A DNA stretch of 64,000 nucleotides from Aggregicoccus sp. 17bor-14 (GTDB lineage Bacteria; Myxococcota; Myxococcia; Myxococcales; Myxococcaceae). The position numbers and the translations under genes are program-made. Under the pieces are notes generated by a model. That model searched no databases and was not told where the DNA came from. It saw only the letters and a list, made by a program, of their open reading frames with translations. Location: contig NZ_VJZZ01000006.1 of assembly GCF_009659535.1 (NCBI RefSeq), positions 62,001 through 126,000 on the forward strand, given 5' to 3'. Below are positions 5,374 through 10,110 of this stretch, one piece after another; the first letter of the stretch is position 1, and every line of letters starts with the position of its first letter.

Positions 5374-5696
5374 GGCGCCCTCCGCATCAGGCGAGCGCGC
5401 GGCGTGGCCGGGTGCTCGGGGTCGTAGAGAGACGCGCTCGCGAACGCCTCGTTGGGCTCCATCCAGTCATTGGCCACCGAGAAGGCGAGGGTGCCCCCAT
5501 CCGTCGCCGGCAGGGGCTGCTCGACGCCGTCCACCCGGCTCGAGAGGGGCCGGAGCGTGAGCCGCTCGCCCTGAGACTCCAGGCAGGGAGCGGGGTCGCA
5601 GCAGTGCGCCTCGTGGGAGCGCAGCAGCAGTGCGCCCGCGGCAATAGCGGCGATGAAGAGTAGGGCCCTCGGGGCCAGGGGAACGAGCGGGGACAT
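5370..5696 (-). CDS. small exported or membrane-anchored protein
   Basis: The 108-residue product starts with an uncleaved-looking hydrophobic segment (LLFIAAIAAGALLL, about residues 11-27). An EAHCCDPAPC motif and a soluble domain of about 75 residues follow. The ATG at 5696 is chosen because the hydrophobic segment follows it directly; the frame is open further upstream, but that part reads as arginine-rich non-coding sequence. The gene overlaps the next small lipoprotein gene by 4 nt and forms a two-gene unit with it. Function is unknown. Confidence 0.5.
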   Translation of the reverse strand: MSPLVPLAPRALLFIAAIAAGALLLRSHEAHCCDPAPCLESQGERLTLRPLSSRVDGVEQPLPATDGGTLAFSVANDWMEPNEAFASASLYDPEHPATPRARLMRRAP

Positions 5697-5784: not shown

Positions 5785-6453
5785 ATGATCACCACGTTGC
5801 TCTGGGACCACGACGGCGTCCTCGTGGACACCGAGCACCTGTACTACCAGGCGACGCGCGAGGTGATGGCCACGGTCGGGGCCACGCTCACGGAGGCACT
5901 CTACCGTCAGCACTTCCTGGTGGAGTCGCGCGGCGCGTGGCACCTCGCCGAGGCGCGCGGCGTCGATGCCGCCGGAGTCGCACGGCTCAAGGCGCTGCGC
6001 GACGCGCGCTACGTCGAGCTGCTCTCGACGGGCGACCGGGTGATTCCCGGCGTGCGCGAGCTGCTCACCGCGCTGTCGCCGCGCTTTCGCATGGCCATCG
6101 TCACCAGCAGCCACCGCGCGCACTTCGACGTCCTCCACCGGGAGAGCGGCCTCCCGTCCTTCTTCTCCTTCGTGCTCACCCGCGAGGACTACGCCGAGTC
6201 GAAGCCGCACCCCGAGCCCTACCTCGCGGCGGTGGCCCGCTTCGGGGCGCGGCCCGAGGAGTGCCTCGTCATCGAGGACTCGCGGCGCGGCCTGCTCTCG
6301 GCCAGGGCGGCGGGCCTGCGCTGCTGGGTGCTGCCCTCGCCGCTCACCGCGCAATCGTCGTTCGACGAAGCAGACCGCCGCTTCTCCTCGCTCGCCGAGC
6401 TCTCGGCCGCGCTGACGAGCGAGGCGCAGGACGCGCCAGAAGTCAGGAGGTGA
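5785..6453 (+). CDS. HAD-superfamily phosphatase (subfamily IA)
   Basis: This 222-residue hydrolase has all four HAD motifs. Motif I is DHDGVLVD (residues 8-15), with D8 as the expected nucleophile and D10 as acid/base. Motif II is IVTSSHRAHF, the motif III lysine is in SKPHPEPYL, and motif IV is LVIEDSRRGL. The cap inserted after motif I and the overall length fit phosphoglycolate phosphatase or beta-phosphoglucomutase relatives. The substrate cannot be told from sequence. It is divergent from the small-protein pair and convergent with the hxs operon. Confidence 0.8.
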   Translation: MITTLLWDHDGVLVDTEHLYYQATREVMATVGATLTEALYRQHFLVESRGAWHLAEARGVDAAGVARLKALRDARYVELLSTGDRVIPGVRELLTALSPRFRMAIVTSSHRAHFDVLHRESGLPSFFSFVLTREDYAESKPHPEPYLAAVARFGARPEECLVIEDSRRGLLSARAAGLRCWVLPSPLTAQSSFDEADRRFSSLAELSAALTSEAQDAPEVRR

Positions 6454-6594
6454 CCGTAAGGTCAGGTGATGCCGAAGGCGAGCGGCGGCTTGCGAAGGCG
6501 AGTACCTGCTCCAGCTCGCGGACCTGCGCCTCCGCGAGGACGTCGGTGACCGAGGCCTTGAACGAGGGCAGGTACGGGACGCCAGACGCGGCTC

Positions 6595-7710
6595 CTATCC
6601 CGACGCTCCTCTGAAAATAGGCGCGATGTGAGCGCTTCGACGAAGCGTCGCCGAAGCGAATAGGCCGCCGCATTGCTCGCGCTCGGTGCAGGCCACACAG
6701 CTGGGAAGGTACTCGTTCTTCCAATCGGAGATGCTCTTGCGCGCATAGGCCCACAGCGATCGGTCGAGGACGCAGAGTGGGTGGTTGTAGATCGAGACTT
6801 GCAGCCGTCCCCTCACGAGCTCTTCAACTGCCGCCCGAAGCTGCGCCTGGTAATCCGCCGGATCGACCCAAAGCGCCTCGAGGTTGCCCCGGGCGAACCC
6901 CATCAACTCGAGCCCCATCAGCGCCACATGGTCCACGAAGGCAAGGTTGCGCGAGATGAAGCGCGCCAAGCGAGGTAGGCGATCGATTGTCTCTTTGTGC
7001 AGGACCACTCGGAGCTCGACCTTCACGCCGCATCGCTTGAGATTCATGATCCCGCGCAGGGTCTGCTCGAAGGCACCCCTCGCCTGAACGACGAAGTCAT
7101 GACCGGCCGGAAGGTCGCTGTAGAGCGGGATGCCGATCATGAGATCGGCACAGGCGACATTGGCGACCTGCTTCGCGAGGGAGAGGTAGTTAAAGAGGCG
7201 CCCGTTCGAGAGGACGTGAAGCGCCGTCGACGGTAGGTGCGACTTGCACGCGCGAAGCAACTCGATGAACCGGTCGCCGAGCAGTGCAGGCTCTCCGCCA
7301 CTCAGCCCGAGCTCGCGCGTCTCGGGGGCCATGAGTGGAATGGCTTGGAGCCAGACGTCCGCGAGGAAGCCGTCATTTGCTTCCTTCGGAGGTTGGCTGC
7401 ACATGACGCAGAAACTGTTGCAGCGCTCGGTGAGCAGCATCGAGTTGTGGGGTGATGCGCGGCGATAAAGGACGTTGAACTCGCCAGCGTACGGAACGAC
7501 GCGAACGACGTCGCCCTCCCTCAGGTAGCTCAGCTCCTCCGGCAGCGCGACGGAAGGTCCATCCGGCAGGCGCAACCGTTTTGCGTCTTCGCCTACGGTA
7601 GGGTCCTCCTCAATCAAAGCAGAGGTCGGCCCAGGACCATTGTGCGTGCTCGCGACGCGTAGCACCGCGGGCTCGCCTTCCCACTTCGCTACTCGAGCAT
7701 GGAGCCGCAT
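6595..7710 (-). CDS. hxsC: His-Xaa-Ser system radical SAM maturase HxsC
   Basis: This 371-residue radical SAM protein is the last gene of the hxs operon. The iron-sulphur motif is C97-x3-C101-x2-C104 (CNSFCVMC), followed by the SAM-binding GGEP at 137-140. A C-terminal cysteine group (CVACTEREQC) could bind a second cluster. About 95 residues precede the radical SAM core, as expected for HxsC. The ATG at 7710 overlaps the hxsB stop (TGATG); a GTG nine bases upstream is also possible. By family knowledge, HxsB and HxsC occur together with HxsA and HxsD and are predicted to modify HxsA. The actual reaction is unknown. Confidence 0.9.
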   Translation of the reverse strand: MRLHARVAKWEGEPAVLRVASTHNGPGPTSALIEEDPTVGEDAKRLRLPDGPSVALPEELSYLREGDVVRVVPYAGEFNVLYRRASPHNSMLLTERCNSFCVMCSQPPKEANDGFLADVWLQAIPLMAPETRELGLSGGEPALLGDRFIELLRACKSHLPSTALHVLSNGRLFNYLSLAKQVANVACADLMIGIPLYSDLPAGHDFVVQARGAFEQTLRGIMNLKRCGVKVELRVVLHKETIDRLPRLARFISRNLAFVDHVALMGLELMGFARGNLEALWVDPADYQAQLRAAVEELVRGRLQVSIYNHPLCVLDRSLWAYARKSISDWKNEYLPSCVACTEREQCGGLFASATLRRSAHIAPIFRGASG

Positions 7711-9176
7711 CAGACCCACCCTCGAAGCACATGGGCTGCGGCTGGATCGTCCTCGAGCAAGCCGATGAGGTGACGCACCACGCCCATCGTCTTCTGACAG
7801 TACGAGCTCGTTGGCTTGAAGCCGACGGAGTTACCTTGCGTCGCGTGGTGGTGCACTGGGTCCGCGCCGCAGTAAGGCTGCAATGCGCAGTCACTGCACA
7901 TCGGGACGCCTTCGGACATGGAATCGAGAAGAGGCTGAAGAAGGCGGTCGCTCGTCATCACCGTTTCGAACTCGTCGATGCCGAGTGTCCCGAGGCGGAA
8001 CGTCTGGTCGCCCATCTCGGCGAGCATGCGCGACTCATCCGAAGCGTAGATGGCACCGTCGTAGTTGAAGACGAGGGCGCTGATGCCGATGCCCGCCGGC
8101 GATTGAAGGTCGACGTAGCCGGTGGGCCAAGGCGTCAGGATCTTGCGCAGAATCAGGGATGCGAACTCCTCTCGAAACGGAACCCCGCGGAGGTTCAGAT
8201 CGATGATGTGGGAGAGCGCGGTCTTGTAGAAGTCGAGCCAGGCCGCCATTTGATAGCGGGACGCCTGACCGGTCTTCACGGCGAAGCCATAGGGACTGAT
8301 GGAGCGAAGGAAGATCGAGTCGAAGCCCTGGGCTACGTACTCGTCGACGATTTCCTTGGGACGCTCGAAGCTCGCCTCCGTGGTGGTCATCAGTGCCGAG
8401 ACCCGGTCCTTGCCAAGTGCAGCGCGCGCGCGGCGAATTCCATCGACCGCGAGCGCGTAGCTGTCCTTGCCCTTCTTCGGTCGATTGAAGTTGTGCAGCG
8501 ACTCGGGTCCGTCGAGCGAAGTCGAGATGAGGATGTGGTGGTCCGCGCAAAAGCGAAGATGCTCTTCCGAGAGCGGCGCCAGGTTGGTGGCGATCACGAA
8601 CTCGACGGCACGACGCTCCTGTAGGTTCCTCTCTTCGACCCGCGCCACGATGTGCTTCACGATCTCGAAGTTCAGCAGGGACTCTCCTCCCTGAAACTCG
8701 ACCTTGAGGCTGGGAGAGGGGCTCTTGAACATGAAGTCGACCGCTGCCTTGGCGGTCTCGACGGTCATGTCGAACTCGTGCTTGCTCTCGGACTGGCGGG
8801 ACACCTGGCAATAGCGGCAAGAGTGCTCGCACCGCAGAGTGGTGACGAACATGAACAGGCTTGTGAACTGCGAGAGAAACGCCTGTTTGGTCCGGTACTT
8901 CAGTGCCAGAAGGTCCAGCGCCACCGCAGAGTCCGCGTCGACCACGAAGTGCGATGCCTTGAGCTCGGCATAGGCGGCCGAGTTCATGGGCAACTCGTGC
9001 CGCACAAGCGCATGGACCGTTTCCCTCGGAAGGACGAGGTGCTCGCCCACCAGATTGGTCACGATGTAGCGGCTGTCATCGAGCGCTAGAAAGCGAAGAG
9101 GAAGCAGGCTGTACCGATTGCCACTTCGAGCGTTGAAGTGGCTCCGCGGCCGAAATGCGGCTTTGAGGCCTGACAT
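7710..9176 (-). CDS. hxsB: His-Xaa-Ser system radical SAM maturase HxsB
   Basis: This 488-residue radical SAM enzyme carries C116-x3-C120-x2-C123 (CEHSCRYC) and an FQGGESLL motif in the GGE position. A SPASM-like cysteine-rich tail (MCSDCALQPYC...YC) would bind auxiliary iron-sulphur clusters, as in peptide-modifying maturases. The N-terminal 100 residues may form a peptide-recognition domain, but I see no clear RRE signature. The ATG at 9176 lies 7 bases after the hxsD stop with a GAGG ribosome site upstream. The gene is coupled to hxsC by a one-base overlap. The likely substrate is the His-x-Ser region of HxsA. Confidence 0.9.
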   Translation of the reverse strand: MSGLKAAFRPRSHFNARSGNRYSLLPLRFLALDDSRYIVTNLVGEHLVLPRETVHALVRHELPMNSAAYAELKASHFVVDADSAVALDLLALKYRTKQAFLSQFTSLFMFVTTLRCEHSCRYCQVSRQSESKHEFDMTVETAKAAVDFMFKSPSPSLKVEFQGGESLLNFEIVKHIVARVEERNLQERRAVEFVIATNLAPLSEEHLRFCADHHILISTSLDGPESLHNFNRPKKGKDSYALAVDGIRRARAALGKDRVSALMTTTEASFERPKEIVDEYVAQGFDSIFLRSISPYGFAVKTGQASRYQMAAWLDFYKTALSHIIDLNLRGVPFREEFASLILRKILTPWPTGYVDLQSPAGIGISALVFNYDGAIYASDESRMLAEMGDQTFRLGTLGIDEFETVMTSDRLLQPLLDSMSEGVPMCSDCALQPYCGADPVHHHATQGNSVGFKPTSSYCQKTMGVVRHLIGLLEDDPAAAHVLRGWV

Positions 9177-9183
9177 GCTCGAA

Positions 9184-9549
9184 CTACCTCGCCCGCGGGT
9201 CGGGCTTGCCGATGCCGAGCGGGTCCTCACGAAAGTCGCCCGACTCCCCGACGGGGTCGAGCAGGGCGGTCTTCGAAAAAGCCTGAGCGAGGATGAGGTT
9301 GCGAACGGCCTCGGTCTCTTTCGCGACGACTTCGCGAAGCTCCTGGTCGAGCACCTCGGTGCGGAAGGCCACTACCAGGTCATCCAGTGAGCCCGGCTGC
9401 TTCAGCGTGAGGGTGACGTAGACCTCGTCTCCACTCCCCAATTCGATTTGCGAGACGCACTGAGCACTGAGTCGATAGGCGGCCTTCTTCACCGCTTCGA
9501 GTCGATAAACGCGCCGGTCAAACTCAACTGTTGCAACTGCGTTCGTCAC
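9184..9549 (-). CDS. hxsD: His-Xaa-Ser system protein HxsD
   Basis: This 121-residue soluble protein starts at a GTG that overlaps the hxsA stop by 4 nt (GTGA). Its first half (VEFDRRVYRLEAVKKAAYRL, about residues 8-27) and its position between hxsA and hxsB match HxsD, the small conserved fourth member of the system. Its role is not established. A partner that presents HxsA to the radical SAM enzymes is plausible but is inference. The last 20 residues are proline/arginine-rich and may be disordered. Confidence 0.85.
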   Translation of the reverse strand: MTNAVATVEFDRRVYRLEAVKKAAYRLSAQCVSQIELGSGDEVYVTLTLKQPGSLDDLVVAFRTEVLDQELREVVAKETEAVRNLILAQAFSKTALLDPVGESGDFREDPLGIGKPDPRAR

Positions 9550-10079
9550 AGCGGGACCTCGATGACCATCTCCTTCACGTCAGACTTCAGAACCCGCTCG
9601 ACCAGTTTGTCCTTGGTAGTGATGATGAGCGTGTTCTCCGTCTTGGTCACCGTGCCGCGATAGACCTTCCCGTTGTTCAGGGTGACTCGGTAGATGGTGT
9701 CCTGATTCGTCGCGCTCGGCGCAGGAGCTCGCGCCGGCGGTGTGTAGGCGGGCTGGGGGGTATAGGTAGGAGGCGACGGCGGGTAGTAGGAGCCGCCACC
9801 ACTGCTCGAGTAGTGCGACGAGTGCGAGCGATGCGAAGAGTGTGAGCGGTGTCCTCCGATGACGAGGTCCTCGCTGCCTTGCTGCATCACCAGTTGCTCG
9901 AGAAGTGTGGCGCCGGGGCTCGCGTCATCCGTGCGCTGCCGCGCCCGAGTGATGATCGGCTCGATGGGAGTGCCGGCCGCCGCGGTGCCCTGGAAAAGCA
10001 GGGATGCAGCAGCGACAGCAGGCCCTCGAAGGCCACTCGCCAGGAGTCCCAGCTTCAAAAACGGCTTCCGCTCGCTCAT
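9546..10079 (-). CDS. hxsA: His-Xaa-Ser repeat protein HxsA (predicted precursor)
   Basis: This 177-residue protein is the predicted substrate of the system. Residues 1-36 look like a signal peptide: a basic start, then a hydrophobic Ala/Leu stretch ending AAAG. Residues 77-91 read HRSHSSHRSHSSHYS, five consecutive His-x-Ser triplets, matching the pattern that defines HxsA. A Gly/Tyr/Pro-rich linker follows (residues 94-122). A compact beta-rich domain (RVTLNNGKVYRGTV to the end) closes the protein. The ATG at 10079 has a GGAGGGG ribosome site four bases upstream. It is the first gene of a four-gene, tightly overlapping operon. That the repeat becomes a modified product is predicted for the family; what it becomes is unknown. 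Confidence 0.92.
   Translation of the reverse strand: MSERKPFLKLGLLASGLRGPAVAAASLLFQGTAAAGTPIEPIITRARQRTDDASPGATLLEQLVMQQGSEDLVIGGHRSHSSHRSHSSHYSSSGGGSYYPPSPPTYTPQPAYTPPARAPAPSATNQDTIYRVTLNNGKVYRGTVTKTENTLIITTKDKLVERVLKSDVKEMVIEVPL
9807..9851 (-). repeat. five in-frame His-x-Ser codon triplets
   Basis: These 45 bases encode HRS-HSS-HRS-HSS-HYS inside hxsA. The histidine spacing of exactly three residues and the alternation of HRS and HSS are the family hallmark and the most likely site of modification. Confidence 0.9.
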
Positions 10080-10083
10080 CTGT

Positions 10084-10098
10084 CCCCTCCGTCGGAGG
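10084..10098 (-). promoter_or_regulatory. hairpin over the hxsA ribosome binding site
   Basis: The hxsA ribosome site GGAGGGG (10084-10090) can pair with CCTCC just upstream in the mRNA (plus-strand GGAGG at 10094-10098), giving a 5-bp stem with a 3-base loop. If it forms, the ribosome site is partly hidden. The stem is short, so this is only suggestive. Confidence 0.35.
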
Positions 10099-10104
10099 CG
10101 GCAA

Positions 10105-10110
10105 ATTATA
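10105..10110 (-). promoter_or_regulatory. hxs operon -10 box (TATAAT)
   Basis: A perfect TATAAT lies in an unusually AT-rich patch about 26 bases before the hxsA ATG. The best -35 candidate 16 bases upstream (TTTGCG) is weak, so an activator may be needed. Confidence 0.6.

Follow-up and report, generated by a model that had tools for sequence, protein, structure and literature searches.

The four genes hxsA, hxsD, hxsB and hxsC lie in this order on the minus strand (6595-10079) of the window, the stretch of 64,000 nucleotides from Aggregicoccus sp. 17bor-14 that was analysed here (Table 1). Neighbouring genes either overlap or are separated by a 7-base gap: the TGA of hxsA overlaps the GTG of hxsD, and with ATG 7710 as the start of hxsC, taken here in place of GTG 7719, this ATG shares one base with the TGA of hxsB; a relative begins with 'MLQLHAR'. 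The start of hxsA is ATG 10079, with GGAGGGG ahead of it at 10084-10090. A preliminary description of this DNA had placed all four genes at 6595-10110 in one overlapping operon; the location and the tight coupling are borne out, but the upstream end was set slightly too generously. The genome (6.9 Mb in 38 contigs) holds a single hxsB copy, and a search of the operon site for tRNAs, Rfam RNAs and promoter-like sites found none. A peptide-like remnant, SGVPYLPSFKASVTDVLAEAQVRELEQVLAFASRR, directly follows hxsC on the minus strand (6443-6600); it may represent a gene's truncated tail and has no relative among the other 75 family genomes.

Table 1. Features of the hxs locus (positions in the window)
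Feature	Position	Strand	Remarks
hxsA	9546..10079	-	177 aa substrate protein; TIGR03979 60 bits, under cut-off
HxS core, HxsA residues 77-91, HRSHSSHRSHSSHYS = (HxS)5	9807..9851	-	
HxsA C-terminal Sm-like five-strand beta domain, residues 125-177	9549..9707	-	predicted model
hxsD	9184..9549	-	121 aa; profile match
hxsB	7710..9176	-	radical SAM maturase of 488 aa with a single auxiliary cluster site (four C-terminal Cys)
hxsC	6595..7710	-	radical SAM maturase of ~371 aa with a single auxiliary cluster site (four C-terminal Cys)
Low-G+C segment, taken as acquired island	6501..10100		G+C step

Measured against the curated cut-offs of NCBIfam, HxsB matches TIGR03978 with 612 bits (cut-off 370), HxsC matches TIGR03977 with 390 bits (267.9) and HxsD matches TIGR03976 with 61.1 bits (50). 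HxsA reaches 60.0 bits against TIGR03979, aligned over profile positions 29-132 of 190, and stays under the cut-off of 121.65 bits because its C-terminal domain differs; its scores against HxsA2 (NF038296, 30.8 bits, cut-off 48) and HxsA3 (NF038309, 26.7 bits, cut-off 65) are lower still. On its sequence the protein is filed as an HxsA-type substrate and not as a TIGR03979 equivalog. A His-Xaa-Ser repeat protein is encoded in the same operon as the maturases, as membership of the Hxs system implies. In the operon's proteins Pfam recognises the radical SAM domain, a related 4Fe-4S domain and nothing else. The earlier assignment to the Hxs family is thus right by the NCBIfam scores, and the comparison of all four proteins with the family models that it proposed came out positive for HxsB, HxsC and HxsD and fell short for HxsA. 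The operon class itself is not undescribed, being known from NCBI models, from papers and from 410 PLSDB plasmid records with an HxsB relative, 317 of them from Klebsiella. The system was named earlier from sequence, its identification being credited to Haft and Basu in PMC9062424, and published lists of genes include it for Pseudomonas aeruginosa ST277 (genome) and for Vibrio parahaemolyticus (island). The family is widespread, and no characterised product or reaction was found in the openly available literature that was searched. What is new in this known but chemically unsolved system is the substrate architecture with its predicted Sm-like tail. The operon was also considered as a defence system and this was rejected, since PADLOC gave weak viperin (radical SAM) matches and nothing more.

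The radical SAM CxxxCxxC motif is formed by C116/C120/C123 in HxsB and by C100/C104/C107 in HxsC (numbered from GTG 7719). Both enzymes carry four extra C-terminal cysteines, C427/C430/C436/C460 in HxsB and C316/C341/C344/C350 in HxsC (same numbering). The motifs and the presence of extra cysteines had been noticed at the outset, and the seven cysteines of each enzyme are invariant across 45 HxsB and 41 HxsC sequences. By this measure HxsB and HxsC look functional. The SPASM domain, with two auxiliary clusters, is characterised by the seven-Cys motif CX9-15GX4C-CX2CX5CX3C-C. The C-terminal region of HxsB does not fit this motif: it has cysteines only as CX2CX5C and one later residue, which points to one auxiliary cluster site and no full SPASM domain. 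The best matches of HxsB outside the Hxs system are thioether/ranthipeptide maturases and their kin (PapB 109 bits, nif11 90 bits) and not the cyclophane formers YhhB (69 bits, cut-off 445), GrrM/OscB (50 bits, cut-off 310) and FxsB (45 bits, cut-off 370); all of these scores are far under the cut-offs of the respective families.

HxsD contains the conserved sequence (E/D)VLDxxLR...ETxxxRNLI(L)xxAFS and is predicted to adopt a beta-alpha-beta-beta-alpha-alpha fold (mean pLDDT 84 in the folded part). A search of the PDB found no sequence relative. Attempts to assign it to a known fold or to an RRE of the PqqD-like winged-helix kind were given up, since structure searches turned up nothing closer than generic ferredoxin-like arrangements (highest Z 8.7, 73 residues).

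HxsA is composed of an N-terminal region resembling an export signal, the HxS core, a linker rich in Ser, Pro and Tyr, and a C-terminal beta domain. The five HxS triplets noticed at the outset are found in tandem at residues 77-91, and in 200,000 shufflings of HxsA not even three tandem HxS triplets ever arose. In 24 HxsA proteins Ser follows at +2 for 155 of the 165 sampled His residues, and the residue at +1 varies widely (Ser, Arg, Tyr, Ala, Gln and others). His residues lacking another His at +3 were counted apart, since there the three-residue period no longer forces a Ser at +2; the rule is still kept in 29 of these 36 cases, with exceptions in His-x-Asn/Thr units and in His residues outside the core.

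It is proposed that HxsB and HxsC would modify the HxS core in the cytosol and that the small HxsD would serve them as an accessory protein, which is the most confident of the three steps put forward here. The nature of the modification is more tentative. The PapB, nif11-type and SCIFF maturases, which form thioethers where they have been characterised, are among the closest relatives of HxsB outside the Hxs system. Thioethers need Cys in the substrate. Unlike the substrates of those enzymes, the HxsA of the window has no Cys, and nearly all of the HxsA proteins compared are Cys-free, which argues against thioethers. The triceptide-type arrangement of an aromatic residue at i and an acceptor at i+2 is present as His-x-Ser in five of the five units of HxsA. 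Three-residue cyclophane formers (FxsB/MscB, HaaB, YhhB, GrrM/OscB) are likewise radical SAM enzymes that act on an aromatic-x-acceptor pair at i/i+2, and they include Phe-Ser and His-Ala pairs, like the His-x-Ser spacing of HxsA. MscB joins Phe C4 to Ser C-beta at i/i+2, and HaaB and YhhB join His C2 to the C-beta of Ala or Arg at the same spacing (PMC11002830). The strict His(i)-Ser(i+2) rule, the lack of Cys and these known Phe-Ser and His-Ala cross-links suggest, by analogy, a series of three-residue cyclophanes between His and Ser as the best guess at the chemistry. Each triplet may thus receive a Cys-free cross-link, most likely from the His ring to Ser C-beta (i, i+2), giving up to five cyclophanes; this step is held plausible, at somewhat less than an even chance. 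Against it, the nearest outside relatives of HxsB include thioether formers, and HxsB scores far under the cyclophane cut-offs and has one auxiliary cluster site. The operon also differs from the cyclophane systems in having two maturases and HxsD. The HxS rule, the Cys-free substrate and the i/i+2 chemistry turn a vague 'modified peptide' into a mass test with an expected change of -2 Da per triplet.

Two other uses of the core compete with the cyclophane proposal. The maturases could oxidise or otherwise change Ser (formylglycine-type, as do anaerobic sulfatase maturases) or His singly, with no cross-link, to give a modified surface protein. HxsB does score 68 bits against the anaerobic sulfatase maturase model (E 7e-19), every triplet offers a Ser, and two enzymes could carry out two different steps, but His(i) and Ser(i+2) keep their distance right up to the ends of the arrays, which suggests joint use of the two residues, and this reading is rated as rather unlikely. 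The HxS stretch could also be mainly a metal-binding His array whose coordination is tuned by the maturases. It is His-rich, probably flexible and probably exported, with a Ser/Pro-rich linker, and a RiPP with His-to-butyrine cross-links is reported to bind copper, according to the title of PMC10206099. Metal binding alone does not explain the strict Ser at +2, however, and no metal transporter, sensor or metal-resistance gene is recognised directly beside the operon, so that such an array is judged improbable.

The folded beta domain that had been supposed to follow the repeat is supported by an AlphaFold2 model in which residues 131-177 have a pLDDT of about 77-92 per block, the model being built from a single sequence with a mean pLDDT of 62.7 overall. 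Residues 125-177 are predicted to form a five-strand Sm-like barrel. Structurally this model comes closest to Hfq and to Sm/SH3-like barrels of extracytoplasmic proteins. Kustd1711 leads with its C-terminal domain (Z 8.8, rmsd 1.5 over 52 residues), and Hfq (Z 7.7; Foldseek E 2.7e-3) and small YgdR-type proteins (Z 7.4-7.6) are also matched. A Pfam search with the domain gave no match, and its sequence matches are weak and to Leptospira proteins. No other copy was found in 193 Myxococcota genomes searched, nor elsewhere in the genome of Aggregicoccus sp. 17bor-14.

A domain after the core is not peculiar to this HxsA, as the plasmid and Myxococcota types carry one too. PG_binding_1 follows the core in HxsA of Klebsiella, Aeromonas, Roseomonas, Hymenobacter and Adhaeribacter, and the predicted Sm-like end of the window protein, which stays under the TIGR03979 cut-off, takes its place in a system that is otherwise the same in having HxsB, HxsC and HxsD over their cut-offs and a repeat protein in a tight operon. 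A PEGA-like domain follows the core in other Myxococcaceae loci and in Polyangium; its matches to PF08308 are weak, the best cases lying just under the gathering score. These PEGA-type Myxococcota loci (13 of the same family and Polyangium) share the A-D-B-C order, the core and a beta-type domain after it with the window, and differ in the kind of C-terminal domain and in a conserved fifth gene beside hxsA. The short HxsA2-type systems (Pseudomonas, Paraburkholderia, Nostoc, a Leptospira plasmid and a Leptospira phage) have the maturases and the core in common with the window, but their core lies at or near the C-terminus with no folded domain behind it: HxsA of Pseudomonas, Paraburkholderia, Acidiphilium and Nostoc stops 2-3 residues after the core (2-5 among short HxsA proteins in general), and one from Leptospira ends 15 residues past it. 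On the evidence of the model, it is the Sm-like kind of domain that is new for Hxs substrates. The HxsA gene of a Calothrix plasmid (L057, 5830-6558) lies after hxsC and encodes a further type of C-terminal domain, which has no Pfam match and by eye resembles copper amine oxidase N-terminal domains.

The occurrence of one core with unrelated envelope-type domains suggests an envelope location for the modified region, with these domains retaining it there. In the proposed sequence of events HxsA would be exported by its N-terminal signal-like region, and its C-terminal domain would keep it attached or folded in the envelope with the modified core displayed and not released, a step considered reasonably probable. 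Display had already been proposed for this protein, and the idea is strengthened by the PG_binding_1 and PEGA-like types, though as a trait of the family and not of this copy. The opposite reading is that cleavage of HxsA sets the HxS core free, to act as a bacteriocin or another small natural product. A radical SAM enzyme with a short repeat substrate is typical of RiPPs, and the short HxsA proteins have only 85-106 aa and carry their core at the C-terminus; these proteins, from Pseudomonas and others, have no anchor behind the core, and display therefore cannot be universal. Long HxsA types nevertheless carry envelope-type domains after the core, and by eye no protease or dedicated immunity gene lies directly beside the operon. 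Release is accordingly given little weight here, and the interchangeable C-terminal domains (PG_binding_1, PEGA-like and the predicted Sm-like) favour envelope display over a released peptide. That the modified region is anchored and not released is the second testable claim, and it comes from these domains. The boldest generalisation, that Hxs makes no released peptide but a string of His-Ser cyclophanes on an envelope protein whose interchangeable domains decide where it is held, is doubtful; if true, the product would be a surface-displayed poly-cyclophane protein.

The operon stands out from its surroundings by a G+C content of 0.61-0.64 (6501..10100) against about 0.67-0.78 on both sides, a step of about 0.72 to 0.62. 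Two relatives share the gene order next to the operon, at 86% and 76% identity over 7 kb, as far as 10342, just upstream of hxsA; a GntR-ABC cassette begins there, and relatives that lack hxs have it too. A search at E 1e-40 did not find the neighbouring HAD gene in any of the 57 other family genomes, so that the empty site is bounded on one side only. HxsC occurs in 16 of 195 Myxococcota genomes, Aggregicoccus sp. 17bor-14 included. A tree of HxsB unites all 14 rows of PEGA-type Myxococcota (support 100/100), which are 55-59% identical to the HxsB of the window; the window copy groups instead with a Planctomycetaceae MAG (support 98/93, 67% identity). Constraining the window copy to group with six of the PEGA rows was rejected for HxsB (p-AU 0.002, somewhat generous since the group was picked after the first tree was seen) but not for HxsC (p-AU 0.185), whose tree places the window copy as the HxsB tree does. 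From the G+C step and the HxsB tree, together with the HxsC placement and the synteny break, the hxs operon was probably acquired separately from the other Myxococcota copies. The contigs of the Planctomycetaceae MAG, the nearest relative by HxsB, begin inside hxsB, and a search of its whole genome for HxsA gave nothing convincing. It has two similar hxsBC copies (L079 and L080; G195:C348, C349), and in both a contig end interrupts hxsB at the same point, the pattern expected of an assembly repeat.

The low G+C, the single copy and the remnant adjoining hxsC (6443-6600) would also suit an insertion that came in recently, is silent or decaying and does nothing for the host, but the four frames are open and coupled and every conserved cluster Cys is kept, and such decay is thought very unlikely. 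The joint explanation preferred here, a complete, intact and probably acquired Hxs system whose modified core would be displayed via HxsA, is put at about an even chance as a whole; its biological role may lie in metal binding, surface adhesion or redox. A viral origin was rejected, as a search of viral_contigs with six peptide patterns found no relative; among phages, Leptospira provides the one clear Hxs locus, next to a single contig that is divergent and unannotated.

The fifth gene that adjoins hxsA in 13 PEGA-type Myxococcota loci has no Pfam match, and the Aggregicoccus sp. 17bor-14 genome contains no match to it. It occurs as a short form of 285 aa or a long form of 785-788 aa with DnaJ-like CxxCxGxG repeats, for example at L023 3102-5468 (where its end overlaps that of hxsA at 5465), L019 7024-7881 and L036 2741-5098 (minus strand). 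Further upstream, several of these loci encode a BrxC/BrxD-type ATPase (PF10923) and a DEAD-box helicase (PF00270/PF00271), as at L023 52-3202 and L032 6153-8322, as well as a protein that is TerB-like by eye; PF10923 has no match in the Aggregicoccus sp. 17bor-14 genome. Downstream of hxsC, a thermonuclease-family gene is present in the Methylobacter and Nostoc plasmid loci (L058, 5651-6367; L067, 6024-6560), and a 'mobilome CxxCx(11)CxxC' protein follows hxsC in the Leptospira plasmid and Leptospira phage loci (L063, 6653-7261; L066, 6687-7253).
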